This document shows, one piece after another, positions 11,399 through 30,120 of a stretch of DNA of 45,484 bases. The stretch is from Deltaproteobacteria bacterium. GTDB lineage: Bacteria; Desulfobacterota; Desulfomonilia; Desulfomonilales; Desulfomonilaceae. The position numbers and the translations under genes are program-made. Positions within the stretch are counted from its first letter, which is position 1; each line of letters starts with the position of its first letter. The stretch spans positions 1 through 45,484 of the forward strand of contig JAJYDQ010000032.1 of the NCBI GenBank assembly GCA_021777225.1, given 5' to 3'. The notes below the pieces were generated by a model. It did not search any database. It worked only from the letters and a program-made list of their open reading frames with translations, and was not told the DNA's origin.

Positions 11399-12547
11399 CT
11401 ATCTGCCATCGTCAATATCTCGTGTCAGCGCTTGCCGGTCCCAAATTTGGTGGTGTATAAGTGTTCCCTGTCTATGTTTACACGATTCCTGCTCACAGTA
11501 ACGGCATTCAGACTTGGCGCATGGATCCAGGTGGACCAGAACGTCTGACATTCCTCTAAAATGCCTGGCGAAAATGGCTTCCAATTCTTTGACTTCACGA
11601 TGCGCCTCCTGAACAGATAAACTGGTTGGAACCACCAAATGGAAGTCCACATTGACCCTTTTGCCGGAACACCACGCCCTGAGCCGATGTATATCAATCC
11701 ACGTCTCTTTCTTATTAGCTGTAAGCAAATGGGAAATTTCATCGAGCAATTTGGGGTCAGTGGCGTGCATCAAACTTCCAAAAGCTTTCCTCACAAGCCC
11801 AGTGCCCCAGAAAACGATATTTATCCCGGCAGCGCACGCAATTATACCGTCAAGACGAAACCATCCCGTCAAGTAAACAAGCAACAAACCAATTAAGACT
11901 ATGACGGATGTAAAAACATCGGTCAGCAGATGCTTGCCGTCAGCTTCGAGCACTATTGATCCAGTCCTTTCGCCCACACGTAGCAGAGCTACCCCTAACG
12001 CCAAATTGCCTGTCCCCGCTGTTATTAGGAAAAATAGGCCTTCTCCAAGGTTAGGAAGATCAATTGGATGAATCATTTGTTTCAAGCCTTCAACAAAGAT
12101 CCCAACTGCAGCCACCAAAATTAGCGAACCCTCGAACCCGGCGGAAAAGAATTCTATTTTCCCATGGCCATAAGGATGATTTTCGTCTGCCGGTCTGGCG
12201 GAAACTATAACGCTTCCAAGGCCGAATCCACTAGCAACAACGTTTATAATGGACTCCAGAGCGTCAGACAGAATCGCTGACGATCCCGTTATCCAATATC
12301 CATAAAATTTTAACCCCATTATAAATGCGCCGACAGTCACCGCGGCCAGCATAATCTTAAAGTTGGACCTGAAGTCTTCCCTCTCGGATGCCGAAACAGC
12401 AATCCGGGGATTGATTTTATTGTGTCTGGGGATAGGAGTGTTGGAATTCAAATTGAAATGTCCTTTGGAATGGCTCAAGTATGCGTCAATTCCGTGAATT
12501 CTCAAGGGAAAAACGGTCAGCCATAATAGCTGAACAGACCTAAACAC
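11399..12547 (-). CDS. Cation diffusion facilitator (CDF) family metal exporter with Cys-rich tail
   Basis: The protein has six predicted membrane helices, the TM2 string SDALESIINV, the inter-helix signature HPYGHGKIEFF, and TM5 EADGKHLLTDV, whose HxxxD is the metal-site half typical of zinc/iron CDF antiporters. A cytosolic CDF C-terminal domain follows. The last 40 residues hold CAKSECRYCEQESC, four cysteines spaced 4, 2 and 4 apart with neighbouring His, a likely extra metal-sensing site. The protein should export Zn2+, Fe2+ or a similar ion with proton exchange. The frame starts at a GTG (12545-12547) with a poor ribosome site; about 60 residues precede TM1, longer than usual, so the true start may be later, such as a TTG near 12451 with AAAGGA upstream. 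Divergent from the hybrid kinase. Confidence 0.88.
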   Translation of the reverse strand: MFRSVQLLWLTVFPLRIHGIDAYLSHSKGHFNLNSNTPIPRHNKINPRIAVSASEREDFRSNFKIMLAAVTVGAFIMGLKFYGYWITGSSAILSDALESIINVVASGFGLGSVIVSARPADENHPYGHGKIEFFSAGFEGSLILVAAVGIFVEGLKQMIHPIDLPNLGEGLFFLITAGTGNLALGVALLRVGERTGSIVLEADGKHLLTDVFTSVIVLIGLLLVYLTGWFRLDGIIACAAGINIVFWGTGLVRKAFGSLMHATDPKLLDEISHLLTANKKETWIDIHRLRAWCSGKRVNVDFHLVVPTSLSVQEAHREVKELEAIFARHFRGMSDVLVHLDPCAKSECRYCEQESCKHRQGTLIHHQIWDRQALTRDIDDGR

Positions 12548-12959: not shown

Positions 12960-15900
12960 ATGCACATGTTGCAACGTTTTAACAGCTTACGTTATCGATT
13001 GACCTTTCTGCTTGTTTTGGGCCTGATTCCATGTGTTGGGTTGATTTTGCACGGCAACATCGAACAACGTCGTCTGTCTTTAATTCGTGCCCAGGAAACA
13101 GCCCTTCAATCTGCCACGGACTTTGCTGAAGTGATTGGTTTTATGATTGAGGGGACTAGTCAAATGCTTCAGGCGCTGGCTGATGAGCCGGAAATACAAA
13201 ATCTTGATAGTCAGGCATGCTCGGAATTTTTTAACGAAAAACTCCTTAAACATGCTTTCCCAATGTATTCCAACGTGGGTCTGGTAAATCTGAAAGGAAA
13301 GCTGGTGTGTAGCGCCTTTTCAGGATTGGATACGGCGCTGTTCTCTGAGCAACCATATTTCAAAGAAGTCGTCGAAACAAAAAGATTTAGGGTGGGTCCA
13401 ATTGTAACCGGCGATCGACAGGGCAAAGGGGCGTTATCCATGGGGTACCCGGTCCTGGACAATTCCGGTTCATTGCGTGGAGTTGTCTTCGCTTATCTGG
13501 AACTGGCTTGGATCAACCACATTGCAAGTCATGCCGGGCTACCTCCCCACGCTACTCTAACAGCCATAGACAAAAAGGGAAATGTTGTCGCCCGTAGTGT
13601 TGACGCTGAGAAATGGGTCGGACGGTCCACTCCTGACTCCGAGATCATAAGAAAAGTTTTGGCCGATGGCAAAGGCCAAACTGAAGCAACGGGCATTGAT
13701 GGTGTGGAAAAGATATATGGTTTCAAACAGGTTGGTGATTCGTCGAAGAATCTTTATGTATATGTTGGCATAAACAGAAGTAAAGTCATAGCCTCGGCAA
13801 ACCGACTGTTACTTTTTGATCTGGTCTGGCTAGGAATCGCCATTCTGGTCGCTATATGTGCAGTTTGGGTTTTTACTTACCATTTAATCACACGGCAAAT
13901 GAACACATTGGTAACGGCTACCAACAAAATTGCCGGTGGGAGTTTCAACGTTCGAACCGGTATGGATCGAAATCAGGGAGAAATAGGTTTTCTTGGAAGC
14001 GCCTTTGACCAAATGGCTGAAGCCCTTCAGGATCGGGAACGGGAACGTCAGCACTCACACGAAGCGTTGCAAAAGGAAAAGCAGTTTTCGGAAATGGTTA
14101 TCGATAGCTTACCTGGAATTTTCTATCTTTTTGACGCAAACGGCAAAATGATTCGATGGAACCATAATACCGAGACGATTACAGGTTATTCTGCCGAAGA
14201 AATCTCGAAAAGCAGTCCATTGGATTTCGTACTCGAGCAGGAACGAGACCTCCTCGTCGAGCGTATCAAAGAAGCCTTGGAAACCGGGGAAGCTTCGATG
14301 GAAGCGCACTATGTAACCAAGAGTGGCGCCACTATTCCATATTATTTCACTGGAAAGGTGGCTGGTATTGATCAGAATAGAAGTGTAATTGGAGTAGGAA
14401 TTGACATTTCAGTCAGGAAAAAAGTGGAGAAGGCGCTAGAGGATAGCGAACGACTCCTCAAAACGATCCTGGCCGCTTCTCCGGTTGGAATTCATGTGGC
14501 GGACAAGCGTGAGATCAAATGGGCTAACGACGCATGGGTAAAAATGTTCGGTTACAAGGAGGCGAAAGACTTCGTTGGCCAAAGCGCCAGCATACTGTAT
14601 CAGTCTGATGAAGAATTTCAACGTGTAGGCGCCGCCCTTTATCCGGGTCTGGAACCGACAAATGTAACTGAGACCGAGGCGAAAATGAAGCGTCAAGACG
14701 GGACATTTTTCGACGCTGTAATACGAATAGCCAGGTTAAACAGCGCTGACCCGGAAAAGGAGTCTATAGTAGCTGTCGTGTCGGACGTTTCCGAAAGAAA
14801 ACGTCAGGAACGGGAACTGAGCGAGAGTGAACAGCGCTATAAAAACCTTGTTGAAACAATGAATGAAGGTTTGGGAATGTTTGATGAAAGGGGAATGGTC
14901 ACCTATGTAAACAAAAGAGCCTGTGAAATGCTGGGTTATAGCGGGGATGAGATCATCAGACGTGGTGTAGTCGCGTTTGTTTCGGAATCGAGCAAACAGG
15001 TTTTACTTGAACAGATGGCTCGGAGGAACAGTGTACCGTCGAGATCTTATGAGCTTGAATGGACTACCAAGGATAACCAGGAAATCTGTACCCTTGTTTT
15101 TGCTAAAACACTCTGGGATACGGATGGAAAATTCAAGGGTAGTGTCGCAACTATAACCGACATCACTGAACGGAAGAAGTACGAGAGACAATTACAGGAT
15201 TCCGCGAAGAAGATGAGGCTATTAATCGAGCAGGCTCCGATAGGTATCGGTATCTTTCAAAACGCAAAATACGTTTACGCAAATCCGGAGCTTGTGAACA
15301 TTTTCAATTGTGACAGTCAGGATGAAATAATAGGAAAATCTCTAACGGAATTCGTCGCTCCAGGCCATCAACGTCTATTCATTGAACGTTATAAAAGGTT
15401 TATTGCGGGAAGACCGACCAGACCGTCATACCAAATGGAAGGTTTTAAGAAGACGGGTGAACTGTTTGACGTGGTACTCTGGCCAAAGAAAATAGAATAT
15501 GACGATAAATCGGCAATTCTGGCATTTATGATGGATGTCACGGAAAACAAAAATCTGCGAGCGCAACTTATGCAAGCTCAAAAGATGGAAGCCATCGGGA
15601 CATTGGCTGGAGGCATTGCGCATGATTTCAACAATCTGCTCCAGGTAGTAGTTGGTTACTCGGAGTTGATCTTGATGGATTCGAATTTGTCGGACAAACT
15701 CAGACAGAGCGTAAAATCAATTAACAAAGTAGCCCTAAATGGAGCTGACCTGGTTAAGAGACTACTAACTTTCAGCAGGAATACCGAAACGGCCCCTGAA
15801 CCTCTGAGTCTGAACGACGAAATTGTAAACATCAAGAAGTTACTGGATCACACAATTCCAAAAATGATCGAAATTGAAATCGGTCTTCAGAAAGGATTAG

Positions 15901-16715
15901 GAACAATCAATGCGGATAGTTCACAGATAGAGCAAATAATAATGAACCTCGCTGTAAACGCCAGGGACGCCATGCCGGATGGAGGACGACTAGTTATAGA
16001 AACTGAGAATATCGTCTTGGACCAGGCTTACTGTTCCGGACACATAGAAGCGACTCCTGGTCCGTACGTGTTACTATCCGTTTCTGACTCCGGGCAAGGG
16101 ATGGACAAAAGGACAATGGAACGTATTTTTGAGCCATTCTATACCACCAAAGCTCCAGGAAAAGGTACAGGACTAGGCCTTGCAATGGTCTACGGTATTG
16201 TGAAACAGCATGGCGGCTATATAATCTGTTACAGCGAGCCTGGTATAGGGACGACTTTTAAGATCTATTTCCCTGCGCTAATTTCAGGCATGGTTTCCGA
16301 AAAACCGGCAGAAGCCTTTGATGAGCAAAGAGGGACTGAAACGATTCTCCTTGTTGATGATGAGGAACAAGTGCGGAATGTCGGAACAGACCTGCTGCAA
16401 GGGGCGGGGTACAGGGTTATTACAGCGGCAAACGCGAAAGAAGCTCTGGAATTATTCAATAACAAACATAGTAGTATAGCGCTCGTAATCCTGGATCTTA
16501 TAATGCCGGAAATGAGCGGCAAGGAATGTCTTGAGGAACTTCTCAGGATCGACCCTAACGCGAAGGTCCTTATGTGTAGCGGTTACTCGCCCAATGGCGC
16601 GGTAAAGGTAGCCATAGACGCTGGAGCCAAAGGGTTCATGAGCAAACCTTACAATTCACATGAAATGCTTGTCCAAATACGTAAAATTTTAGGTCCCACG
16701 AAACCACAAGCATAA
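12960..16715 (+). CDS. Membrane hybrid histidine kinase: Cache, HAMP, four PAS, kinase core, receiver
   Basis: The 1251 residues order as follows: TM1 (about 14-32), a periplasmic double-Cache sensor (35-275), TM2 (282-304), HAMP (306-360), four PAS domains (starting about 375, 498, 626 and 752), HisKA with GGIAHDFNN (near 880), HATPase (N box near 992, then DSGQGM and GTGLGLAMVYG), and a C-terminal receiver (from about 1126) with the phospho-acceptor Asp in LDLIMPEMSG and the Lys in FMSKPYN. It should sense a small extracellular ligand and phosphorylate its own receiver; no phosphotransfer partner is adjacent. ATG 12960 has GGAG only 3 nt away, so the ATG at 12966 (9-nt spacing) may be the true start. 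Its core closely resembles that of the kinase at 1633, a sign of duplication. Confidence 0.93.
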   Translation: MHMLQRFNSLRYRLTFLLVLGLIPCVGLILHGNIEQRRLSLIRAQETALQSATDFAEVIGFMIEGTSQMLQALADEPEIQNLDSQACSEFFNEKLLKHAFPMYSNVGLVNLKGKLVCSAFSGLDTALFSEQPYFKEVVETKRFRVGPIVTGDRQGKGALSMGYPVLDNSGSLRGVVFAYLELAWINHIASHAGLPPHATLTAIDKKGNVVARSVDAEKWVGRSTPDSEIIRKVLADGKGQTEATGIDGVEKIYGFKQVGDSSKNLYVYVGINRSKVIASANRLLLFDLVWLGIAILVAICAVWVFTYHLITRQMNTLVTATNKIAGGSFNVRTGMDRNQGEIGFLGSAFDQMAEALQDRERERQHSHEALQKEKQFSEMVIDSLPGIFYLFDANGKMIRWNHNTETITGYSAEEISKSSPLDFVLEQERDLLVERIKEALETGEASMEAHYVTKSGATIPYYFTGKVAGIDQNRSVIGVGIDISVRKKVEKALEDSERLLKTILAASPVGIHVADKREIKWANDAWVKMFGYKEAKDFVGQSASILYQSDEEFQRVGAALYPGLEPTNVTETEAKMKRQDGTFFDAVIRIARLNSADPEKESIVAVVSDVSERKRQERELSESEQRYKNLVETMNEGLGMFDERGMVTYVNKRACEMLGYSGDEIIRRGVVAFVSESSKQVLLEQMARRNSVPSRSYELEWTTKDNQEICTLVFAKTLWDTDGKFKGSVATITDITERKKYERQLQDSAKKMRLLIEQAPIGIGIFQNAKYVYANPELVNIFNCDSQDEIIGKSLTEFVAPGHQRLFIERYKRFIAGRPTRPSYQMEGFKKTGELFDVVLWPKKIEYDDKSAILAFMMDVTENKNLRAQLMQAQKMEAIGTLAGGIAHDFNNLLQVVVGYSELILMDSNLSDKLRQSVKSINKVALNGADLVKRLLTFSRNTETAPEPLSLNDEIVNIKKLLDHTIPKMIEIEIGLQKGLGTINADSSQIEQIIMNLAVNARDAMPDGGRLVIETENIVLDQAYCSGHIEATPGPYVLLSVSDSGQGMDKRTMERIFEPFYTTKAPGKGTGLGLAMVYGIVKQHGGYIICYSEPGIGTTFKIYFPALISGMVSEKPAEAFDEQRGTETILLVDDEEQVRNVGTDLLQGAGYRVITAANAKEALELFNNKHSSIALVILDLIMPEMSGKECLEELLRIDPNAKVLMCSGYSPNGAVKVAIDAGAKGFMSKPYNSHEMLVQIRKILGPTKPQA

Positions 16716-17436: not shown

Positions 17437-18876
17437 ATGAAAAAGGCCAGTTTCAAGATCCGTCGCAAAATTATTCTAGCCTTTATTTTCTGTTTCCTTT
17501 CGGTATTGTTGTTCGCAATTTTTAGTTTTGAGTCTCAGAGGGAGATCGGGAGACGGTTACGTTTGGTTGAGGTCGCCGATGATCTCGTGAACAATCTGCT
17601 CGAAGTCCGACGTTTTGAGAAAAACTTTTTTCTTTACAAGCAACCAGCGAGTTTACATGAGGCGCTAAATCACGTTGACAGAGTGGAAGCGCTCTATCTC
17701 AAACATGAGCCCGCCATCCGAAATCTATCAAAGGACAAAAAAGAACCCATCTTTTATCAAACTCTTCTCTGTTACAAAGAAACCCTCTCGGAACTCCAGG
17801 CAAGCATCTCCAAAGAGACCAGGCCAATTGATAAAATGGATTTCTCAGCGCCGGAGGAATCACTCAGAATCATAGCGCAATCTTTGCTCGATGTTGCGGG
17901 CACTTGGGCCAAGGAAGAAAGGGATAGAATCGACCATCTCTTTCGCCGCGCCCTGTATTTGTTCATAGCCGCCCTGGCCTTTTTCGTCGTGATCGGGATA
18001 GCTGTGGCCTTTTACATATCACGACTATTTACTGCCCCGCTGGTTCGTATGCAACAAGCAATGGAAAAAATAGCACAGGGAGATTTTACTCCAATTCCTG
18101 AAGATCAGCGTCATTCTGAAGAATTTGCGCCGCTATTCAAAGCGTTCAACAGGATGATCAACGAACTTGAGGAACGTCAAGAGCAGCTTGTGCAAGCCAG
18201 GAAGATTTCGGCTATTGGCACTTTCACTTCGGGGATAGCCCACGAGCTGAACAATCCTGTCAACAACATTGTTCTTACCGCCGAAGCGCTTAAAGAAGAT
18301 TTTGGGAGCATCGAGGAACAGGAAGCGCTAGGAATGATCCAGGACATTATCATTCAGTCCGAACGCGCGTCTGAAATAATCAGGAACTTACTGGACTTTT
18401 CAAGATCAGAAAAACCCGAGATGATTTCTACGTCAATTTCTTCCGTAATCGGCGATACTTTAAAGCTCGTCAGAAACCAGTTGTTGCTTTCAGGGGTTGA
18501 ACAGAAGGTCGATCTTCCGGCTGACCTTCCCAATGTTTGCGGGGATTACAAAAGTCTGCAACAGGTGTTCCTGAATCTTTTCATTAATTCAATCCAGGCG
18601 ATGCCTCACGGTGGAAATCTGATTATTAAAGGCGCCATGGCGGACGCAGGACAATCAGTCAGGATTTCCATTACTGACACTGGTGAAGGCATTGATCCAG
18701 AGGACATACACCATATCTTTGATCCATTCTTCACGACGAAGGAGGTGGGTAAAGGTACCGGTCTGGGTCTGTCTGTCACGTATGGAATTCTTCAAAAACA
18801 TGGCGGAACTATCGAGGCGCACAGCCAAAAGGGTCAAGGCGCGACTTTCCTGGTGACGTTACCTACGGAAAAGTAA
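17437..18876 (+). CDS. Membrane sensor histidine kinase partnered with the NtrC-type regulator
   Basis: The 479-residue protein has TM1 (about 10-30), a helical periplasmic sensor of about 135 residues with [12 protein letters not shown] as found in helical-bundle (HBM-like) sensors, TM2 (about 168-192), HAMP, then a HisKA domain with GIAHELNNP (His near 267). The HATPase domain shows the N box [20 protein letters not shown] and [11 protein letters not shown]. The NtrB-like H box (HELNNP) fits kinases that pair with sigma-54 activators. The regulator gene begins 32 nt downstream, so the two form one system. AAGGG about 8 nt before the ATG supports the start. The ligand is unknown. Confidence 0.93.
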
Positions 18877-18907: not shown

Positions 18908-20245
18908 ATGCGTATTGCAGTAATCGACGACGAGGAAATTGTTCGCTCTCGCCTCCATAAGGCGCTGACCAAAGAGGGCTATGCCGTCGAAACATATGGA
19001 TCTGGAGAAGAATTCCTTAACGCTCTGGAGCATACTCCAGTCGATCTGGCGTTTCTGGACATTTCCTTGCCAGGAATTAGCGGCCTGGAGGTTCTAAAGC
19101 ACGCCAAACCGAAATTTCCTGAGATGGAAGTAATTCTAATGACAGGTTATTCGTCAATAGAATCAGTAATTGACTCCGTCAGACAAGGGGCTTTCTATTA
19201 TGTGGCCAAGCCTCTCAAGCTCGATGAAATCAGACATCTTGCTTTAAAGGTCCATGATCGAAAGCGTCTTTTGGATGAAAACCGAGCGTTGAAAACCGTT
19301 CTCAGCCCTGTAGACGGATGGGGGGCGATGATTGGTGTCAGTTCAGCGATGAAGGAGGTTTTCAGCCTTATAGAGAAGGTGGCTCCTCTGGATTGTAATG
19401 TTTTAATTCAGGGAGAGAGCGGAACTGGCAAAGAACTTGTCGCCAGATCAATTCATCGTCAGAGCCGACGAAAGGATAGGGCCTTTGTGGCCTTCAATTG
19501 TGGTGGTTTCACCGAAGAATTGATAGCCAGCGAACTTTTCGGATACCAACGCGGGGCGTTTACCGGGGCCACCGCGACTAAAATAGGCATTCTGGAAACT
19601 GCGTCCGGAGGAACAGTGTTCATGGATGAAATAGGGGATATGCCTTTGTCCATGCAGGGCAAGCTCCTGAGAGTCATCCAGGAAAAACAGATCATGCGCG
19701 TAGGCGCGAACAAACCCATTCAGTTGGATTTACGTTTCATAGCCGCTACTAACAAAGACCTCAAAAAAGCTGTTCGGGAGGCAAGGTTTCGAGAAGACCT
19801 CTATTTCAGGTTAAACGTAGTGCAAATCAATCTTCCTTGTTTGATGGATCGCAAAGAAGACTTGTCTTTGTTAATAGACTTCTTTACTCAAAAATACTCA
19901 ACAAAATTCTCAAAAAAGATTTCCAATATGGAACATATCGCCAGACAAATTCTTCTTTCTTACAGTTATCCGGGAAATGTAAGAGAACTCGAAAACATTG
20001 TGGAAAGAGCAGTTGCCCTGGCTGAGAGTGAATCTATAACGTTAAATGATCTTCCTCCAGATTTGAGGGAATATTCGGTAACACAATATGGAAAGTGGCT
20101 AACTTATGAAGAGCAAGAGCGGGACTATATCAAGCGTGTACTCAAATTTACGGATCATAATCTAGGTAGAACCGCCAAGATATTGAATCTGCCTCGCACC
20201 ACCCTATGGAGAAAACTTAAAAAGTATGGTCTGTCACAGTCCTGA
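18908..20245 (+). CDS. NtrC-family sigma-54-dependent response regulator
   Basis: The 445 residues comprise an N-terminal receiver (phospho-acceptor Asp51 in FLDISLPG, Lys101 in VAKPL), an AAA+ activator domain (from about 140; Walker A GESGTGKE at 169-176; GAFTGA at 216-221, the loop that contacts sigma-54; Walker B region VFMDEIGDM) and a C-terminal Fis-type helix-turn-helix (about 400-445, RTAKILNLPRTTLWRKL). It should turn on sigma-54 promoters when phosphorylated by the kinase encoded just upstream. Two repeated sites and a -24/-12 promoter begin right after this gene, so the Usp/TauE gene run is the likely target. Confidence 0.95.
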   Translation: MRIAVIDDEEIVRSRLHKALTKEGYAVETYGSGEEFLNALEHTPVDLAFLDISLPGISGLEVLKHAKPKFPEMEVILMTGYSSIESVIDSVRQGAFYYVAKPLKLDEIRHLALKVHDRKRLLDENRALKTVLSPVDGWGAMIGVSSAMKEVFSLIEKVAPLDCNVLIQGESGTGKELVARSIHRQSRRKDRAFVAFNCGGFTEELIASELFGYQRGAFTGATATKIGILETASGGTVFMDEIGDMPLSMQGKLLRVIQEKQIMRVGANKPIQLDLRFIAATNKDLKKAVREARFREDLYFRLNVVQINLPCLMDRKEDLSLLIDFFTQKYSTKFSKKISNMEHIARQILLSYSYPGNVRELENIVERAVALAESESITLNDLPPDLREYSVTQYGKWLTYEEQERDYIKRVLKFTDHNLGRTAKILNLPRTTLWRKLKKYGLSQS

Positions 20246-20321
20246 GTGTTAGATTTATCTCATCTTTTCGCCCGTATTATAGCGTATGACAATATGAATA
20301 TTCCACATCCCCCACCAAGTA

Positions 20322-20399
20322 CCATTTTGAAACATTTCTCAATCGGCTTCATTTCTGGTTTAAGCCATCTTACTCCTTAATATGTTTCCATTTTGAAAC
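20322..20399 (+). promoter_or_regulatory. Paired CCATTTTGAAAC repeats, candidate upstream activator sites
   Basis: The 12-mer CCATTTTGAAAC occurs exactly twice, at 20322-20333 and 20388-20399, 66 nt apart (about six helical turns). The second copy extends to the inverted repeat GTTTC-N6-GAAAC (20384-20399). They lie roughly 160 and 95 nt upstream of the transcription start predicted from the sigma-54 promoter, where NtrC-type activators usually bind. The regulator gene ends 76 nt before the first copy. Binding is inferred. Confidence 0.6.
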
Positions 20400-20464
20400 G
20401 CGAACTTGTTTAACCCATTGCGTGACTAAACGACATGTGCTTGTTTTAATTTATGGTTTAGGTT

Positions 20465-20480
20465 TGGCATCTTTCTTGCT
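20465..20480 (+). promoter_or_regulatory. Sigma-54 (-24/-12) promoter of the Usp/TauE operon
   Basis: TGGCATCTTTCTTGCT matches the sigma-54 consensus TGGCAY-N5-TTGCW, with the invariant GG (20466-20467) and GC (20478-20479) separated by exactly 10 nt. Transcription would start near 20491, followed by GAGGAG (20497-20502) and the ATG at 20512. The promoter lies inside the longest open frame, which is why that frame's upstream start must be wrong. Confidence 0.8.
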
Positions 20481-20511
20481 TTACTTAACCACAAATGAGG
20501 AGATGTTTCCA

Positions 20512-20982
20512 ATGGGTAAGAAGGTTCTTGCCGCAGTGGACCTAAATTCAATAACTGATTCGTCCCCCTTGTACGGCATACAATTAGCTGCAAGGACACA
20601 AGGGGCGATCGTCCTTATGGTAATCTCGACTTCAAAACAGACTAAACGACACGGGCGGGCCACAGTCTCTTCAGGTGACATCGATGATAATCTAAATGGT
20701 TGGTTCGACAAGCTTGTTGATCAAAGTCAACAGAATGGTGTCGCAATGGAGATTTTTTTCGCTTCCGGTGATTTCTTTGAGGAGATCACAAAGTTCGCAT
20801 CTTTCAATCCTTCTGTTCAGTTCATAGTCATGGCCGCTCCGGAAGAGTTCAACGCCGTGGACAATTCCGCCTTTGTCGAGGATCTAAAGTTACTTCGTGA
20901 AAAATTTGAGGGGGAGATTCTTCTTGTTCAAAAGGCTGGGCATGTTACTCGAGTGCCCGATCTAGGTTCTGAAGACCCATAA
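20512..20982 (+). CDS. Universal stress protein-like (UspA superfamily), single domain
   Basis: From the ATG at 20512 this is a 156-residue protein starting MGKKVLAAVDLNS, the usual first strand of the Usp fold. It goes on with an alpha/beta pattern to FIVMAAPEEF and EILLVQKAG. The ATP-binding signature G-x2-G-x9-G(S/T) of nucleotide-binding Usp proteins is absent. GAGGAG lies 9 nt before this ATG. An upstream start at 20422 would put a sigma-54 promoter inside the coding region and add an atypical extension, so I reject it. First gene of the predicted sigma-54 operon; TauE/SafE follows after 14 nt. The fold call is fairly sure, the role unknown. Confidence 0.8.
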   Translation: MGKKVLAAVDLNSITDSSPLYGIQLAARTQGAIVLMVISTSKQTKRHGRATVSSGDIDDNLNGWFDKLVDQSQQNGVAMEIFFASGDFFEEITKFASFNPSVQFIVMAAPEEFNAVDNSAFVEDLKLLREKFEGEILLVQKAGHVTRVPDLGSEDP

Positions 20983-20996
20983 AGGGAGATCTGATC

Positions 20997-21926
20997 ATGA
21001 GTTGGAATATTTATCTGCCAATAGCCGGCGCGAGTGTAAACATTTTTTTGTTACTCGGTCTGGGAGGAGCTGTAGGTTTCCTTTCCGGACTCTTCGGGGT
21101 CGGAGGAGGTTTCCTTATGACCCCTCTTCTCATAATGGCCGGTATTCCGCCACTGGTAGCCGCCGCATCTGATTCCAATCAGATAGTCGCGGCGTCAACA
21201 TCCGCAACATACGCCCATTACCGGATGGGAAATGTAGATTTTAAAATGGGTATTTTGCTTTTGATCGGTGGTGTTGTGGGGGGCGCCTTGGGGGTTCAAC
21301 TGATTCACATTCTGCGAAGTATGGGTAATGCAGACTTTGTAATCAAAATCACTTATGTTGTTATGCTTGGGGTAGTAGGCTTTTACATGTTCATGGAGAG
21401 TCTTCAGAGTCTCCGCAAGGCATCTATGGCCGAGGAAAGGGTGGAGCCTTCCAAGCCTTCACTTTATGTTCGAACTGTTCAAGCGCTACCGTTTCAGATG
21501 AAGTTTCCGAAGTCCGGCGTAACGCTGTCGATTTTTCTACCTCTCATTCTGGGGATTTTCGTTGGAATTTTAGCAGCGATCATGGGCGTCGGCGGTGGTT
21601 TCATAATGGTCCCAGTCATGGTTTACATGCTACGTATGCCCATGCACGTAGTTGTCGGAACAAGTCTGTTCCAGATCCTGTTTACTTGTGTGAACGTTAC
21701 AGTCTTGCAGGCTGTTGAGAACCACACGGTTGATTTGATTCTTGCTATACTATTGTTGTTGGGTTCTACGATCGGAGCGCAATTCGGAGCTCGTTTGAGC
21801 AGACGACTCAAGGGTGACCAATTGAAAATAATTCTGGCCTCTGTTGTGCTGCTTGTGATGTTCCAGATGCTTTTTGGGTTAATCCTTTCACCGTCTATTA
21901 TGCTTGCATACAAAGGAGGACACTAG
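20997..21926 (+). CDS. TauE/SafE-family (sulfite/organosulfur) membrane exporter
   Basis: The 309-residue protein has about eight membrane helices in two repeats, each starting with the family signature (GLFGVGGGFLMTP near 32 and AIMGVGGGFIMVP near 194). TauE/SafE (PF01925) members export sulfite, sulfoacetate or related anions, or act as uncharacterised anion permeases. AAAGGGAG lies before the ATG. The next gene starts directly at the following base and encodes the TIGR02186 partner often found beside this type. In a sulfur-metabolising anaerobe sulfite or thiosulfate export is plausible, but the substrate is not shown. Confidence 0.92.
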   Translation: MSWNIYLPIAGASVNIFLLLGLGGAVGFLSGLFGVGGGFLMTPLLIMAGIPPLVAAASDSNQIVAASTSATYAHYRMGNVDFKMGILLLIGGVVGGALGVQLIHILRSMGNADFVIKITYVVMLGVVGFYMFMESLQSLRKASMAEERVEPSKPSLYVRTVQALPFQMKFPKSGVTLSIFLPLILGIFVGILAAIMGVGGGFIMVPVMVYMLRMPMHVVVGTSLFQILFTCVNVTVLQAVENHTVDLILAILLLLGSTIGAQFGARLSRRLKGDQLKIILASVVLLVMFQMLFGLILSPSIMLAYKGGH

Positions 21927-22706
21927 ATGAACACTCGAAATGGTGTCCGGTTTGTTTTTATTTTAATACTGACTCTTTTTGTAACGAGTCTCTCCTGTTC
22001 CTTGGTCTCGGCCACATCTCGGGATCTTAAACTAAATCCATCAGAGATTCATATCCGCGAGTTTTTCCAAGGCGCTTCGATGACGATAACGGCTTCAGTT
22101 CCGCCTCAAGCTCTGTACATTATTGAGATCAAGGGCGAATCTCATGCACAGGAACTGCTACGCAAAGGTCGCAGGGGCGGTCTCTGGATGAACGTCGGAG
22201 AGGTCAAGGTTCGAGCTGCGCCTTCCCTATACCTTATGCTGACAAGTGAAACAGGCGATTTGCTAAAAAAGGACATTGGGCCTGATTTTGGGTACGCAGC
22301 CTTGAAGAAGGTAATAACTTTTTCAGGTCAGTTGCCGAAGAATGGGAGCGATATGCTTTTTGACCAATTCCTGAAGCTAAAGGAGAATCAGGGTCTCTAT
22401 GGGATTTTCCCAGGAGCTATAAAAGTTAAGGGTAAGGGGACTGAAGGACAGAAAATTGAAGGTAAAGTAGATCTTCCGTGCAATATTACTCCCGGCTCTT
22501 ACCAGGTCATTCTTTCTGTTGTTAGGGATAGCAAGTTGCTGGAACAGGAAATTACAGAGTTTACGGTAGAAATGAAGGGTCTGCCGGAACTCCTTTCAAC
22601 TCTGGCCTTTGAACACGCTTTGTTTTATGGTTGCCTAGCGGTAATAATAGCAATTGTATTTGGTTTCCTGATGGGTTTTGTTTTTGGAGGCAAAGGCGCA
22701 CATTAG
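21927..22706 (+). CDS. TIGR02186-family (PF09608) membrane-anchored protein
   Basis: The 259-residue protein has an N-terminal signal or anchor (about 8-30), a beta-rich extracytoplasmic middle (LKLNPSEIHIREFFQGASM, VPPQALYIIEIKGE, GLWMNVGEVKVRAAPSLY, GLYGIFPGAIKV) and one C-terminal membrane helix (about 230-253). The WMN..V.V..AP.LY pattern is typical of the PF09608 family, found next to TauE/SafE genes. The start codon follows the TauE stop with no gap, and AGGAGG lies within the end of tauE, so translation is coupled. It is probably a periplasmic partner of the exporter; its exact role is unknown. Confidence 0.85.
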   Translation: MNTRNGVRFVFILILTLFVTSLSCSLVSATSRDLKLNPSEIHIREFFQGASMTITASVPPQALYIIEIKGESHAQELLRKGRRGGLWMNVGEVKVRAAPSLYLMLTSETGDLLKKDIGPDFGYAALKKVITFSGQLPKNGSDMLFDQFLKLKENQGLYGIFPGAIKVKGKGTEGQKIEGKVDLPCNITPGSYQVILSVVRDSKLLEQEITEFTVEMKGLPELLSTLAFEHALFYGCLAVIIAIVFGFLMGFVFGGKGAH

Positions 22707-22769
22707 GGGTTTGATTAATCGAGACGTGTAGAAATCTTGAAGCTTGTCTATGTGAAGGAGCTGTCTCGA

Positions 22770-25370
22770 GTGTGGTCTCGAATAGGGAAATTAATAAAGA
22801 AACTGTTTTCTGGAAAGCGATCAAAGGTCGCTTTCCAGCAGGTATTCGAACAATTCCAGACCTTGCTCCAGAACCATCAGGACGCAATGGAACTTATAGC
22901 TGATCTTGGAGAAAAGTCTGGGGGAGATTACATATTTGATCGAAAATATTTGGTTGATTCGGTCTCAGAGTTACAAGAATTATTGTTACGAATGGTTAAA
23001 GGCCTTAATCTGATTTCATCCGAGAGGTATTATGAATTATACTCGACTCTTGATCGAGTCTTTTTTCCGATTGAGATGGAACTCAGAGGCCGACTTGCGT
23101 TATCAAACGCTCCTTATGTTATTTCCCTTACAGAAATGCCCTTAGATACTCCTGAACTGACAGGAGGGAAAGCCAACGCCTTGGGTGAAATCATTCATAA
23201 ACTTGGAATTCCGGCGCCTTCAGGATTTGTGATCACTAACCGGGCTTACAATCGTTTTGTGGAATACAATGACCTCGAGGAACGAATCCATTCCTGGCTT
23301 GAACTCTGGATGTCGGGTAAGGAGACTTTGGAAAAATCTTCAGGCCAAATTAGATACGGCATACTGGCCGGCATTGTGCCGCAGGACATTTCCCGGCAGA
23401 TTCGAGACAATACGAAGACTGATAATGAGTTTTGGGCCATACGAAGTAGCGCATATGGCGAAGATGGGGATTTGTCATTTGCCGGGCTGCATGAAAGTGT
23501 CCTAAATGCCCCCGCGTCCCAAATCCCTGACGCTTACAAGCAGGTCCTTGCGAGTCTTTATTCTACAGAGGCGCTAACTTACCGGCGGCAAATGGGTATG
23601 ATCGGCGAGGAAGCCGCAATGGCCGTGCTTTGCCAGGAGATGATTGACAGTCGTGCAAGTGGGGTCATCCAGACATTATCACTCGAATCCTCGCAGCCCA
23701 ATTGTCTTGCGATTTATGCCGCATTTGGTTTAGGTCGGACTGTAGTTGAGGGGAGGGATTCCTCCGACCGATACATTGTTGAACGGGCTTATCCTCACAA
23801 AATCGTCTTTAAACGAATCGCAAAAAAGGAGTCATTTGTCAGGGCCGCTTCGAGAGGTGGCGAAGAAGAGGCGATCTTGCCTGAAGATATACGGAGCAAA
23901 TCGTCTATCTCCGAAGGAATTGTTAATTCTTTAGCAAAGTGGGCCATGGCCCTCGAAAGGTATTTCAAGCGCCCACAGGAAATCGAATGGGCTATAGACT
24001 CGGCGGATCAGATATGGATTCTTCAGTGCAGAAGGCTTGCGATAAGCCCGGAACAGGCAGAAACTGACGGAAACATACCAGACCGATTTTCGAGCCATCC
24101 TATTCTTATCGAGAACCGCGGCGTGGTGGCTCATGCCGGAGTAGGATCAGGGCGAGTTTACATAGTCAACAACCACGCGGACATGGCTGTTTTCCCGGAA
24201 GGGTCGGTGCTAGTCACAAAATATACTGCCCCGTGGCTGGCTCAGATTGTTCCGAGAGCTACCGCAATTGTTGCTGAAAAGGGTTCTGTCGCTGGTCACC
24301 TCGCTACAATCGCAAGGGAATTTCGTGTCCCTGCTCTTCTAGGAATAGACAATGCCACCGAGATCCTTCAAAATGGTATGGAAATTACTCTCGATACACA
24401 CCATCGAACTGTTTACTCAGGAAAGGTTGACGAACTCATCAACTTTGAACGTGTACAGTCTATGGTTTTTGAAGAGTCTCCGGAATTCCGCCTGTTGAGA
24501 AGACTGCTCAAAAGAATAGCGTCGCTTCATCTAATCGATCCTTACGCCTCTGATTTTACGCCGGATAATTGTGTTTCGGTTCATGATATGATTCGATTCA
24601 TACATGAGAAATCGGTCCAGGAATTAATGGAAATCCCGGGTTCGCTTGCACGTTTTAAGGAGGCGAAGGTTTGGCAATTGGAGAGTGATGTGCCGCTTGA
24701 TTTGAGGATACTTGATCTGGGTGGTGGTATCGATCCGGAACTTTGTGGAAACAAGGTCGAGATTGAACAGGTCCGGTCATTGCCCCTAAGGGCACTATGG
24801 GAAGGCGTTTCTCATCCGGATTCGTGGAGCACCAGACCGGTTGAGATAGATTTTAAGGGCTTGATGTCGAGCCTCACCAGGAATTGGGACGCTGCAGGTG
24901 GTGGAGTCGCCAACGCAGGATTCAACCTGGCCGTGGTCAATGGCCTGTACATGAACCTCCACTTGAGACTGGGGTACCATTTCAACCTGATTGACGCCAC
25001 TATGCATGAACAGGCGCAGCGTAATCATATCTATTTCAGGTTTGTCGGTGGAGTTACCGATCTGACTCGCAGGTCCCGAAGGGCCCAGGTACTCTCGCAG
25101 ATACTTTCCAATTATCACTTCAACGTATTGATCAAAGGGGACCTTGTTATAGCGAGGCTTGTGGACCTTCCTAAAGAAGAGATCGAAAGCCATCTCAAAG
25201 TAATAGGGGCCCTGATTGGTTTTAGCAGACAACTGGATATACAGTTGAGAAGCGACCAGGATGTTGATCAGTTTGTCGAACAGTTTTTAAACCGGTATGG
25301 CAGTCTAACAAAGTCCGTTCCGGCAGGAGGAGAAGATGAACAAGTTAAAGATTATGGTCTTGGACGATGA
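22770..25370 (+). CDS. PEP synthase-like protein: ATP-grasp and phosphohistidine domains with an unusual C-terminus
   Basis: The 866-residue protein has a helical N-terminus, then a PEP/pyruvate-dikinase ATP-binding domain (from about 120: GGKANALGEI, AIRSSAYGED, SFAGLHESVL, QEIEWAIDSADQIWILQ) and a swivelling phosphohistidine domain (catalytic His near 510 in VAGHLATIARE). The PEP/pyruvate TIM barrel of true PEP synthase is replaced by about 290 residues of another kind (RFVGGVTDLTRRSRRAQVL near the end). So it likely phosphorylates its His from ATP and passes the phosphate to an unknown acceptor, or is regulatory. The open frame reaches a TTG at 22737; the GTG at 22770 has AAGGAG 9 nt upstream and is preferred. 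Its 3' end overlaps the receiver gene by 35 nt. Confidence 0.82.
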   Translation: MWSRIGKLIKKLFSGKRSKVAFQQVFEQFQTLLQNHQDAMELIADLGEKSGGDYIFDRKYLVDSVSELQELLLRMVKGLNLISSERYYELYSTLDRVFFPIEMELRGRLALSNAPYVISLTEMPLDTPELTGGKANALGEIIHKLGIPAPSGFVITNRAYNRFVEYNDLEERIHSWLELWMSGKETLEKSSGQIRYGILAGIVPQDISRQIRDNTKTDNEFWAIRSSAYGEDGDLSFAGLHESVLNAPASQIPDAYKQVLASLYSTEALTYRRQMGMIGEEAAMAVLCQEMIDSRASGVIQTLSLESSQPNCLAIYAAFGLGRTVVEGRDSSDRYIVERAYPHKIVFKRIAKKESFVRAASRGGEEEAILPEDIRSKSSISEGIVNSLAKWAMALERYFKRPQEIEWAIDSADQIWILQCRRLAISPEQAETDGNIPDRFSSHPILIENRGVVAHAGVGSGRVYIVNNHADMAVFPEGSVLVTKYTAPWLAQIVPRATAIVAEKGSVAGHLATIAREFRVPALLGIDNATEILQNGMEITLDTHHRTVYSGKVDELINFERVQSMVFEESPEFRLLRRLLKRIASLHLIDPYASDFTPDNCVSVHDMIRFIHEKSVQELMEIPGSLARFKEAKVWQLESDVPLDLRILDLGGGIDPELCGNKVEIEQVRSLPLRALWEGVSHPDSWSTRPVEIDFKGLMSSLTRNWDAAGGGVANAGFNLAVVNGLYMNLHLRLGYHFNLIDATMHEQAQRNHIYFRFVGGVTDLTRRSRRAQVLSQILSNYHFNVLIKGDLVIARLVDLPKEEIESHLKVIGALIGFSRQLDIQLRSDQDVDQFVEQFLNRYGSLTKSVPAGGEDEQVKDYGLGR

Positions 25371-25713
25371 ACCAATCGTTTGTAAACGATTGAAGCCCGC
25401 TCTTGAGAAGCAGGGTTACGAGGTCGATACCTTCACCCAAAGCTCGGACGCGATGGAACAAATCAAGAATGTGGAATATGACGTAATTATTACTGACCTA
25501 AAAATGAAGGGTATTGACGGAATGCAGCTTTTAACCGAGGCTAAACAACGCTCACCGAAAACGGAGGTCATTGTAATAACGGGTTTTGCTACAATGGAAA
25601 CCGCCAAAGAATCTTTTCATAAGGGTGTATTTGACTTTATTGCGAAGCCATTCAAACTAAGTGAAATTCAGGAAGTGGTATCTCGAGCCGAAGCCAAAAT
25701 TCGGGGAGAATAG
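25336..25713 (+). CDS. Single-domain response regulator (CheY-like receiver)
   Basis: The 125-residue protein is only a receiver domain: acidic pocket LDDEP (Asp10, Asp11), phospho-acceptor Asp54 in IITDLKMKG, Thr in VITGFA, and Lys in FIAKPFK. There is no output domain. GGAGGAG before the ATG lies inside the last codons of the PEP-synthase-like gene, and the 35-nt overlap means the two are translated together. It may take phosphate from the upstream kinase system and act on the PEP-synthase-like protein or the Usp proteins by direct contact (inference). It resembles the receiver of the NtrC-type regulator in the same cluster. Confidence 0.92.
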   Translation: MNKLKIMVLDDEPIVCKRLKPALEKQGYEVDTFTQSSDAMEQIKNVEYDVIITDLKMKGIDGMQLLTEAKQRSPKTEVIVITGFATMETAKESFHKGVFDFIAKPFKLSEIQEVVSRAEAKIRGE

Positions 25714-25786: not shown

Positions 25787-26587
25787 GTGATAAAGACTTT
25801 GGTGTCAATTGAAATGGATCTTGCTTCCAGCCTTGCTATCCGTTTTGCGTGTCAACTAGGGGGGGCCATTGATATGGAAATCCACCCTGTTTATGTCAAA
25901 GAGCCACTTTCCCCAGACTCTTCACGGGGCGCAGGCTGGGCGAGTAGAACGTGGGAACGGGAAATCGTAGAAACGGGGAAAGAAGAAATATCTAAAATGA
26001 TCGCCCCGGAAATGGATTTTTGTCCCAAGCTTTATGATCCTAGTGTAATATACGGGGATCGTCATTCAGAAGTAGGTAGAATAGTTCAGGAGGGCCTGTT
26101 CGATCTGTACATAGAAGGGGCCGATTTTACTTGGAGCCACGCAGAACTGTACAAGTTGGCTCATACCAAGTTTTATCAACGGTTAACATGTCCCATAATT
26201 CTAGTCCAATCGCTCAGAAAAATGAAGAAGGTTCTGATATTGTGTTCGGATATAGCAGGAACAGACATTTTAACAAAGACATTTGAAAAAATTTGGAAAG
26301 GATCATCTGTGGGTCTGGTCCTGGCTCATCCTGCGGATTATTTGACTTCGTCCGGAGAAATGGGCCTCAAAGAAAAGGTCCTGGAATTAAGGGGCCTTTT
26401 GGAGAAGGCTGGTTGCGCTGTTGAACAGAAACAGATTGATCCGGAAGTTTTCTCCAATCCCAAGGAAGATTTCGTGAAAGACTTTGATTTAGTGGCACTA
26501 GGATTAGACAGAGCAGTCCGAAAAGACAGTGTTGAGCTGGAATGGCTCAGTTTCGTCAGAACGGCCTCTCTGATAGCATTTTACTGA
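25787..26587 (+). CDS. Divergent tandem universal stress protein-like protein
   Basis: This 266-residue protein with a GTG start (GGGAGG about 8 nt upstream) has two Usp-like halves. The first starts MIKTLVSIEMDLASS and ends CPIILVQS; the second starts KKVLILCSDIAGTD and ends with a short strand at the C-terminus. Strand/helix order fits the Usp fold, but the G-x2-G-x9-G(S/T) nucleotide motif is not present in either half. Assignment rests on the layout and on two flanking Usp genes, so it is moderate. It follows the receiver gene by 73 nt. Confidence 0.65.
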   Translation: MIKTLVSIEMDLASSLAIRFACQLGGAIDMEIHPVYVKEPLSPDSSRGAGWASRTWEREIVETGKEEISKMIAPEMDFCPKLYDPSVIYGDRHSEVGRIVQEGLFDLYIEGADFTWSHAELYKLAHTKFYQRLTCPIILVQSLRKMKKVLILCSDIAGTDILTKTFEKIWKGSSVGLVLAHPADYLTSSGEMGLKEKVLELRGLLEKAGCAVEQKQIDPEVFSNPKEDFVKDFDLVALGLDRAVRKDSVELEWLSFVRTASLIAFY

Positions 26588-26605: not shown

Positions 26606-27463
26606 ATGAGAATTCTATTTGCGGGAGACGAACATCCGTATAGCGAATACGCCCTTAAGGAAACCGTTAAATTGGCCATGAATACATGGGCGGACGTAAC
26701 CTTGCTGGGGATAAGTCAGGCTACAAATCCGGTTGAAGATACCCAAGTAGGGAAAGCCTTGAGAGGTTATCGAGACACGTTTCTAAATAGCTGGAGCCGT
26801 GAAGATTCCCCATACATACAGGGTGAAGGAAAATATGAGTGGGTCCCGGTTAAAACCGGCGTTGTTGAAGAAATGAAAGTCCTTATGGGCCGCAAAAAGG
26901 ATTTCAAGGTACGGTTGAGGTCTGGGTCGCCTGCGCGAGAGATTTTGACGGAATCTCAGGAAGATGGCAGTGATTTGATTGTGCTTGGTTGCGCAAAAGG
27001 TGCCAAGTGCGAATGGGCAAATTCTCTTCCAGCCCCGCAGCAGGTTGTGGATGACGCTGATTGCTCAGTGCTTCTTGTCAAAGAGCAACAACCGGTAACA
27101 AGGATTGTGGCCTGCCTTGATCAAGGCTATATAAGTCAGGAATCGCTCGAAATGATCAATCAGATGATCACAATTTACAATGCTCGTTTGGATCTGATAG
27201 GGTTAAGCCAAAATGGTGACATGGAGAAATCTGTATACACCAGGCTCATTGAAATCGGAGACTATTACAACGATAGGCAAGTGGAGATAAATACACGCTT
27301 AATGGACATATCCGATTTTGAGCAGTTGATAGCCCAGGAAATCAAACAGGACCTTCTTGCTTTATGGTTGGGCAAGAAATCGCTCCTTAGCCGTTTCTTT
27401 TCCCGGGGTTGGGTGGGGCGATTTGTGAGTAAATGTCCCACGAGCGTTTTAGTGATGAGATAG
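26606..27463 (+). CDS. Tandem universal stress protein
   Basis: The 285-residue protein has two Usp-like halves: MRILFAGDEHPYSEYALKET, then the segment SDLIVLGCAKGA and CSVLLVKEQ close the first; TRIVACLDQGYISQESLEM opens the second, which ends TSVLVMR. The first half keeps the strand-Gly turn (LGCAKG) but not the downstream G(S/T) of the ATP motif. AAGGAG lies before the ATG, and the gene begins 18 nt after its Usp-like neighbour. Probably a cytosolic stress or energy-status protein of the sigma-54 cluster. Confidence 0.78.
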   Translation: MRILFAGDEHPYSEYALKETVKLAMNTWADVTLLGISQATNPVEDTQVGKALRGYRDTFLNSWSREDSPYIQGEGKYEWVPVKTGVVEEMKVLMGRKKDFKVRLRSGSPAREILTESQEDGSDLIVLGCAKGAKCEWANSLPAPQQVVDDADCSVLLVKEQQPVTRIVACLDQGYISQESLEMINQMITIYNARLDLIGLSQNGDMEKSVYTRLIEIGDYYNDRQVEINTRLMDISDFEQLIAQEIKQDLLALWLGKKSLLSRFFSRGWVGRFVSKCPTSVLVMR

Positions 27464-27492: not shown

Positions 27493-27509
27493 AGTTTCAC
27501 TGTGAAACT
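27493..27509. promoter_or_regulatory. 17-bp perfect palindrome between two Usp genes
   Basis: AGTTTCACTGTGAAACT is a perfect inverted repeat (8 bp arms, 1-nt centre) in the 77-nt gap before the third tandem Usp gene. Its GTTTC/GAAAC half-sites are the same as those of the candidate activator site at 20384-20399, with a 5-nt instead of 6-nt spacer. It could be an operator for an internal promoter. No -24/-12 element is close by. A transcript hairpin is the alternative. Confidence 0.45.
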
Positions 27510-28389: not shown

Positions 28390-30120
28390 ATGGGTCCTGA
28401 AAGATCAGATAAAGAAACTCCCCAAAGGAATTTAGACCCCAAGGCTAATCTATCGGAAAATCTTCTTAATATACCAGCGTCAGTCGCGCCCGAGGTTGAA
28501 CTCCTCTGGCGCGGAAAAACACGTCATAAAAATCGGAAAGTTGACGCTCTTCGTTTGGTAGAGCGTGTTCACATTATTCCCAATTTATGCGCAGGGACTC
28601 TTCGAAGGTCAAAATCCGCCCAAGACCCCTGGAATAATAAACTGATCCGGGGAGATAATAGATTGGTTATGAGTTCCCTTCTTACAGATCGCATGCGAAG
28701 AGAAATTGATGATGTCGGAGGGATTAAGCTCATATACATTGATCCTCCATTCCTGGTTGGTTCCGATTACAAAATGACTCTTCTGATTGGTGAGGATAAT
28801 CAGGATCGGCCCAACATTGTTCAGGAGTTCGCATATAAGGATTCCTGGGAGGCGGGGCCCAGCGCATATCTGGACATGATGTACGAACGTCTTTGGCTCA
28901 TAAATGAACTTCTTGCTGATGACGGGAGCATTTGGGTTCATTGTGATTGGAAGGCCAATTTTATGTTGCGGTCTATTCTGGACGAGGTTTTTGGATCAAC
29001 AGCCTTTCGAAACGAGATAATCTGGTATTACACTAATAAAATCCCTGACACACGCAAGCGTCAGTATACAAACGCCACAGATACAATTTTTTATTATTGT
29101 AAATCAGACAGGAGCATTTTTAACTGGCAATTTGAAAAGAGAGAAAAACCGATAAGAGTTTCCCGGATGCAGAAAGTGGAAGGGAAAAAGATTTATCCCA
29201 AAGGGCCAGATGGGAAATGCGTTTATGTAACTCGTGAAGAAAGGACCGCGGACAACGTCTGGAAGTTCCCACTGTTACACGCTCACCCGGAAATGTGGGG
29301 ATATCCTACTCAAAAACCCATGCGACTTTTGGAAAGAATCATGCTCACTGGAACTAACGAAGGTGACTTGGTGGCAGATTTCTTCTGCGGTTCTGGGACT
29401 TCACTGGAAGTTGCCCAAAGATTGGGCAGAAAGTGGATAGGCTGCGACTTGGGCAAAATTGCCGTTCATGTATGTCGCAAACGTATGGTCAAGACCCTTA
29501 ATGAAGTAATGCGCCTGTCAGAGAAAGTATTTGGGTTCGATGTGCTTGAAGCGGAAGAACCAGAAGACTTGAAACTTAAGAAAGCTGCTAACGCAGTTCC
29601 TGTAAATGATTATCACAGAGGCGAATATAACTTGGCCAAAGATCTCGCCTATTTCAAAGTAAATATTTCAATCAATGCTCTCACAGTCTCGGTCACTCTA
29701 GTTGATTTTTGTGCGCTTTCTGGTAGAACCATAAATGAGATTTTCCAATTCAAAGGGAAAACTGGTTCGTCAAGAATTATTCTGGACAATGGGCAATTGG
29801 TGAAAATCGTCAACAAAAAGGATGGCAGTGAACAAAGGTGTTTGCTTACTCAAAAATGGAGTGACTGGATCGACTGTTGGGCTGTGGATTTTGAATATGG
29901 CGCGGCTCAATTGCAATCAGGGGAACAGCCAAGAGTTGAGCCGGATGGACCTATTTTCAACAGTGTCTGGCACAGTTTCCGGACGCCGAAGCGTCGATCC
30001 ATTGAATTATCAAGCCCGACATGGGAATATGAATGTCCTGGAAATTACAATATTGCGGTCAAAGTCATCGACATATTCGGCAATGAAACATTTCAAGTGT
30101 TAGGAATAGAAGTCCTTTAA
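28390..30120 (+). CDS. Site-specific DNA methyltransferase (amino-methylating, beta-type order) without a restriction partner
   Basis: The 576-residue protein has the catalytic motif IV DPPF (about 118-121) before the S-adenosylmethionine motif I DFFCGSGT (about 330-337). That is the order of beta-class N6-adenine / N4-cytosine methyltransferases such as type III Mod subunits. The region between holds the target-recognition part. The last 150 residues are a beta-rich tail ending YECPGNYNIAVKVIDIFGNE, which looks like a PKD-type beta-sandwich strand pattern. No restriction (Res) or helicase gene follows; ABC transporter genes do. It starts 3 nt after a Usp gene with a weak ribosome site, so it may be translationally coupled. 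It could be an orphan regulatory methylase; the target sequence is unknown. Confidence 0.88.
   Translation: MGPERSDKETPQRNLDPKANLSENLLNIPASVAPEVELLWRGKTRHKNRKVDALRLVERVHIIPNLCAGTLRRSKSAQDPWNNKLIRGDNRLVMSSLLTDRMRREIDDVGGIKLIYIDPPFLVGSDYKMTLLIGEDNQDRPNIVQEFAYKDSWEAGPSAYLDMMYERLWLINELLADDGSIWVHCDWKANFMLRSILDEVFGSTAFRNEIIWYYTNKIPDTRKRQYTNATDTIFYYCKSDRSIFNWQFEKREKPIRVSRMQKVEGKKIYPKGPDGKCVYVTREERTADNVWKFPLLHAHPEMWGYPTQKPMRLLERIMLTGTNEGDLVADFFCGSGTSLEVAQRLGRKWIGCDLGKIAVHVCRKRMVKTLNEVMRLSEKVFGFDVLEAEEPEDLKLKKAANAVPVNDYHRGEYNLAKDLAYFKVNISINALTVSVTLVDFCALSGRTINEIFQFKGKTGSSRIILDNGQLVKIVNKKDGSEQRCLLTQKWSDWIDCWAVDFEYGAAQLQSGEQPRVEPDGPIFNSVWHSFRTPKRRSIELSSPTWEYECPGNYNIAVKVIDIFGNETFQVLGIEVL

Follow-up and report, generated by a model that had tools for sequence, protein, structure and literature searches.

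The window, that is, the whole 45,484-nt stretch of DNA analysed here, contains the genes of a sensor kinase and of its likely partner regulator, followed by a short region of predicted regulatory elements and by a series of genes on the same strand, which begins and ends with a universal stress protein (Usp). These features, and the basis on which each was recognised, are as follows:

17437-18876, plus strand: sensor histidine kinase (HAMP, HisKA, and HATPase domains, by Pfam), likely partner of the regulator, which it adjoins in most homologous loci
18908-20245, plus strand: NtrC-family response regulator with a receiver, a sigma-54 AAA+ domain, and a Fis-type HTH (Pfam, motif, and clade)
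20319-20333, no strand: distal predicted operator, GTACCATTTTGAAAC, with two mismatches to GTTTCA-N3-TGAAAC; conserved in six species; PWM rank 4 in the window
20385-20399, no strand: proximal predicted operator, TTTCCATTTTGAAAC, with two mismatches; invariant run at 20389-20399 in five species; PWM rank 1 in the window
20465-20480, plus strand: -24/-12 element of the predicted sigma-54 promoter, TGGCATctttcTTGCT (letters; GG and TTGC retained in relatives; rpoN in the genome)
20491, plus strand: predicted start of transcription, approximately 12 nt past the -12 GC, placed by the geometry of sigma-54 promoters
20495-20504, plus strand: likely ribosome-binding region, AATGAGGAGA, in which TGAGGAGAT is retained in close relatives; precedes ATG 20512
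20512-20982, plus strand: divergent universal stress protein, 156 aa, first gene of the predicted operon (Pfam Usp in homologues; AlphaFold model)
20997-21926, plus strand: TauE/SafE (TSUP) family transporter (PF01925, E 6e-52)
21927-22706, plus strand: TIGR02186/Alph_Pro_TM family protein (PF09608; TIGR02186 score below its cut-off)
22737-25370, plus strand: PEP-synthase-like protein (PPDK_N and mobile domain, by Pfam)
25336-25713, plus strand: stand-alone receiver domain (Pfam)
25787-26587, plus strand: conserved operon protein, 266 aa (synteny; no Pfam family found)
26606-27463, plus strand: second universal stress protein (PF00582)

Upstream of the kinase-regulator pair, at 12960-16715, lies the gene of a large sensor kinase of the hybrid type (dCache, HAMP, several PAS, HisKA, HATPase, and receiver domains), and a 576-aa frame with an N6/N4 DNA methylase domain (28390-30120) lies between a third Usp gene (27541) and a cluster of branched-chain amino-acid ABC transporter genes.

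The predicted promoter and the putative operon downstream

The sequence TGGCATCTTTCTTGCT at positions 20465-20480 reads TGGCAT-N5-TTGCT, with the GG at 20466-20467 and the GC at 20478-20479 set 10 nt apart, exactly as a sequence-only reading of the window had reported, and this corresponds to the GG-N10-GC arrangement within TGGCAY-N5-TTGCW that is typical of sigma-54 promoters. The genome encodes rpoN (PF04552, E 6e-61), and the element is conserved upstream of the orthologous operons. Five other genomes of the family carry orthologous loci with the kinase, regulator, Usp, and TauE genes, the regulators being 71-97% identical. Between these close relatives, the intergenic sequence has diverged except in the boxes and the -24/-12 core, which are conserved. 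In the alignment of this region, the positions that are invariant in five species number 25 of 30 in the boxes and 10 of 16 in the promoter, against 38 of 208 elsewhere (Fisher p about 1e-13, for species that are related, and thus not independent). The positions of the promoter that stay are the GG and the TTGC, while the two longest invariant runs fall in the boxes.

The same alignments bear on the start of the first gene, which the sequence-only reading had moved from 20422 to 20512. The frame between GTG 20422 and ATG 20512 is interrupted by stops in four of the five relatives, and its sequence is not conserved, while the conserved TGAGGAGAT stands before ATG 20512, so the later start is upheld. 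The possibility that the whole arrangement is fortuitous, in that a longer Usp gene begins at GTG 20422 and its genuine 5' end happens to include an AT-rich repeat and a -24/-12 word, would be consistent with the frame from this codon being open in the window, and with the modest excess of the -24/-12 word alone, which has 17 matches genome-wide versus 6 for the control, or approximately three times as many. It is contradicted by the broken frames of the relatives, by the conservation of the elements, and by the abundance of the operator boxes in homologous loci, as described below, and is scarcely credible.

The assignment of this first gene to the universal stress proteins, also proposed from the letters of the window, is borne out by its homologues and its predicted fold. 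The Pfam Usp model does not match the window protein (20512-20982) taken alone, but is matched by 28 of the 32 homologous first genes, and UspA-type structures are the top matches of its AlphaFold model (mean pLDDT 82; E 5e-7), with modest TM-scores of 0.5-0.6.

The earlier placement of the promoter in front of a Usp gene stands, but the promoter probably serves a longer operon, rather than this gene alone. In addition to the first Usp, it would drive the TauE-family transporter, the TIGR02186 protein, the PEP-synthase-like protein, the receiver protein, and a further Usp. The start of the operon might instead depend for the most part on a housekeeping promoter, or on read-through of transcripts from the kinase and regulator genes, leaving the -24/-12 element a minor role, given that the regulator gene points in the same direction as the Usp gene, and that no terminator-like site turned up in 20200-20560. 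A search of the same interval recovered no sigma-70-like promoter, however, and the kinase and regulator genes are divergent from the operon in many relatives, which makes read-through impossible there, and the boxes and the -24/-12 element are still present. This alternative is considered highly unlikely.

Operator boxes in the window and in related genomes

The two exact copies of CCATTTTGAAAC noted in the initial inspection, at 20322-20333 and 20388-20399, 66 nt apart, were confirmed in letters and coordinates, although the palindrome of which they form part was framed incorrectly. It had been described as a 16-nt palindrome, GTTTC-N6-GAAAC, which lies one base out of frame with the 15-nt GTTTCA-N3-TGAAAC recovered by an unbiased search. 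For this search, a scan of the GTDB genomes with a TauE alignment yielded 80 loci, mostly from the Desulfobacterota (sulfate-reducer-type bacteria), among which the order of kinase, regulator, Usp, TauE, TIGR02186-like, PEP-synthase-like, receiver, and Usp genes is widely kept. All the 5+5 gapped palindromes upstream of the homologous transporter gene were enumerated in 78 of these loci, without the use of the earlier motif. The top palindrome was TTTCA-N3-TGAAA, which is found at 84 sites in 55 of the 78 upstream regions, and at none in the coding controls. When extended to GTTTCA-N3-TGAAAC, with up to one mismatch, it occurs at 105 sites in 63 of the 78 loci, against 0.05 expected from shuffles. 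As both the de novo search and the one-mismatch count return this form, the predicted operator spans 15 nt, with two 6-nt half-sites around 3 central nucleotides.

A candidate -24/-12 element, scored against a threshold of the analysts' own choosing, follows within 300 nt in 62 of the 63 box-bearing loci, with a rate of 0.08 in shuffles. The commonest distance from the start of a box to the -24 element is 77-81 nt, and it is 80 nt in the window, where the centres of the distal and proximal operators lie approximately 165 and 99 nt, respectively, upstream of the predicted start of transcription. These are paired palindromic sites in the range of approximately 80-200 nt upstream of the promoter that characterises the NtrC family. 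The spacings between paired boxes (loci L062-L141) cluster at 41-43, 80-85, and 91-93 nt, and also at 62 nt, that is, near whole helical turns. The 66-68-nt class, which includes the window, falls between whole turns, and given that 66 nt is approximately half a turn off the commonest spacings (41, 82, and 92 nt), the two dimers may not share one face of the helix.

In a scan of the 45-kb window with a matrix trained on the distant loci only, leaving out the close relatives, the two boxes rank first and fourth, and form the only pair within 120 nt. The same scan found no high-scoring box upstream of 17437, and autoregulation of the kinase-regulator operon was rejected for this reason. There are only four occurrences of CCATTTTGAAAC in the 4.04-Mb genome, compared with none of a control pattern, and the two outside the window pair are located within gene-like open frames, one similar to an ABC-transporter ATPase and the other to a glycosyltransferase, so that this word revealed no second target. 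The genome scan with GTTTCCATTTTGAAAC that had been suggested would fail, given the true frame of the palindrome, and its sole other exact copy (C122:37470) is in the glycosyltransferase-like frame. A scan allowing two mismatches to the consensus, in turn, returned 285 matches versus 178 in the control, and is too noisy to define the regulon. A perfect palindrome, GTTTCACTGTGAAAC, is also present at 27494-27508, between the second and third Usp genes. It was rejected as an operator, being kept in only the two nearest species and followed by no obvious -24/-12 element, and was treated as a chance occurrence or hairpin.

The regulator and its probable recognition sequence

The regulator encoded at 18908-20245 combines a receiver, a sigma-54 AAA+ domain with GAFTGA at residue 216, and a Fis-type HTH whose recognition helix is PRTTLWRK, the architecture of the NtrC family. 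The regulators adjacent to boxes form a single clade of 92 sequences (support 0.994; FastTree, midpoint-rooted), of which 91 have the helix RTTLWR, the exception being L058, with RVSLWR. No box of up to one mismatch was found within 3.5 kb of 22 of the 92 regulators, most of which have sites with two or three mismatches, or a target further off.

A number of exceptional loci separate the regulator from its neighbours. In L059 and L109, tauE follows another kinase gene and has no boxes, and the pair of sites is instead located between the regulator gene and a Usp-like gene. In L058, there is neither tauE nor a GTTTCA box, and GTTGCA-type sites are present instead, followed by TGGCACGGACCTTGCT. 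No box was found upstream of tauE in L108, L122, L130, or L134, all of which lack an adjacent regulator. The sister family of regulators, with the helix DRVSLWRK, likewise lacks the GTTTCA box, and is associated in some of its loci with GTTGCA-N3-TGCAAC sites (approximately 7 with up to one mismatch in 75 kb, against 0.3 expected), which were not found upstream of tauE in any of the core loci. The contrasts provided by L059 and L109, by L058, and by the sister family tie the boxes to the regulator clade, and GTTTCA-N3-TGAAAC is thus probably what this regulator recognises.

The genome encodes at least 28 homologous regulators, and the palindromes might be bound by another of them, or by a factor that is not an enhancer-binding protein, with the promoter itself being real and the adjacent regulator acting elsewhere. 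This is improbable, considering that the boxes follow the regulator clade rather than tauE or the kinase alone, that they are missing from the four loci without an adjacent regulator, and that a change in the recognition helix coincides with a different palindrome.

Overall, the region 20319-20480 is very probably a sigma-54 promoter with two activator sites, which the regulator at 18908-20245 would bind to switch on the operon that extends from the first to the second Usp. On receiving a signal, the neighbouring kinase (17437-18876) would phosphorylate the response regulator, whose dimers would bind the two palindromes and assemble an AAA+ ring, and looping of the DNA would bring this ring into contact with the promoter. 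There, ATP and the GAFTGA loops would open the sigma-54 RNA polymerase held at TGGCAT-N5-TTGCT, and the operon would be switched on from ATG 20512, through the transporter, the TIGR02186 protein, the PEP-synthase-like protein, and the receiver, to the second Usp. As the dozens of related bacteria compared here show, this putative switch has been kept by selection, and the comparative evidence supports the original proposal, in which the neighbouring activator acts on a sigma-54 promoter from two sites upstream of it. The promoter and the two predicted operators appear, then, to be genuine and conserved elements, and while the NtrC/sigma-54 mechanism is ordinary, the specifics are new.

A broader proposal has roughly even chances of being correct. 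It holds that a single NtrC-type clade governs an undescribed Desulfobacterota regulon by reading GTTTCA-N3-TGAAAC, and that specificity has switched between the sister families, with RTTLWR reading GTTTCA and RVSLWR reading GTTGCA. The other loci of the sister family, represented by short stretches only, carry neither a GTTTCA nor a GTTGCA box, and, as the loci are also few and the comparison partly post hoc, the pairing of helix and half-site is put forward as a hypothesis. If true, it would supply one predictive element of a code for DNA recognition by activators with a Fis-type HTH, and a specificity rule open to analysis through point mutants. Palindromes of the GTTGCA-N3-TGCAAC type are located at L190:5919-5984, L191:4919-4987, L058:8075-8176, and L189:11498-11622, beside regulators with the RVSLWR helix, and lie near the gene of a Lon-domain response regulator in two of these loci. 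Next to a further kinase-regulator unit, at L190:9526-17001, lie TGGCATGGAGGTTGCT (at 11741), which resembles a sigma-54 element, and the genes of a different TauE-like protein and a PEP-synthase-like protein, which indicates that this type of module recurs with another transporter.

Comparison with known systems

The window shares the general plan of the NtrC-family two-component activators that act with sigma-54, that is, a receiver-AAA+(GAFTGA)-Fis HTH protein, paired palindromic sites, and a -24/-12 promoter in front of a neighbouring operon. It differs from the general kind in its palindrome, GTTTCA-N3-TGAAAC, and its target operon, no description of which, or of the regulator, was found in the papers searched. 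The search covered the text of this literature, in which the letters of the motif are not mentioned, the published logos being figures.

In Desulfovibrio vulgaris, DVU3305 is associated with the Lon-domain regulator DVU3303, and targets DVU3302-3298, with UspA domains (PMC3333781). The sister family (L189-L192; 42-46% identical) is apparently of this type, as assigned by synteny, and resembles the window in its Usp-containing operons. It is distinguished by the helix DRVSLWRK and a candidate GTTGCA-N3-TGCAAC palindrome near the Lon-type gene, whereas the window regulator has PRTTLWRK and, in the genes examined around it, no neighbour of the Lon type. The sigma-54 regulators DVU0110 and DVUA0057 (with DVU0132-0133) bind upstream of an operon encoding a TSUP-family permease (PMC4641369). 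They are set beside the window by description, rather than by sequence, and differ in being tied also to exopolysaccharide genes.

The regulon of DVU0539 and DVU0946 is the closest functional parallel, yet appears to be a different regulon. Both regulators bind a shared motif, and the operons under their control encode Usp and a putative sulfate exporter of the PSE type (PMC3333781, PMC4641369), the genes involved being DVU0539/DVU0540, and DVU0946 with DVU0542-0545, DVU0943-0946, and DVU2133-2132 (PMC3333781, PMC4641369, PMC10102598). Activation of the DVU0542 promoter has been confirmed by reporter (PMC3333781), and transposon fitness data tie this cluster to molybdate (PMC10102598). As in the window, a sigma-54 response regulator stands beside an operon of Usp, a putative sulfate exporter, a small membrane protein, and Usp, although the exporter belongs to the PSE family (PF03601), and the window transporter to TauE/TSUP (PF01925). 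In tests on likely congeners of D. vulgaris (cytochrome c3 similarity 85-89%), the species itself being absent from the 288 family genomes searched, this family was rejected as that of the window regulator on the basis of its transporter, and of the regulators encoded near PF03601 genes in the Nitratidesulfovibrio-like genomes, which are only 35-39% identical, have a different helix, fall in a separate clade, and lack a GTTTCA box. One of these genomes (G149) also has a separate 52% orthologue, located beside TauE. Alongside these systems, the window offers a corrected start for the Usp gene, at 20512, and a concrete predicted operator. The two-component system to which this operator would belong is widely conserved among sulfate-reducer-type bacteria, yet apparently unstudied, and its target operon would bring together stress proteins, a transporter of the TauE type, and a PEP-synthase-like enzyme.
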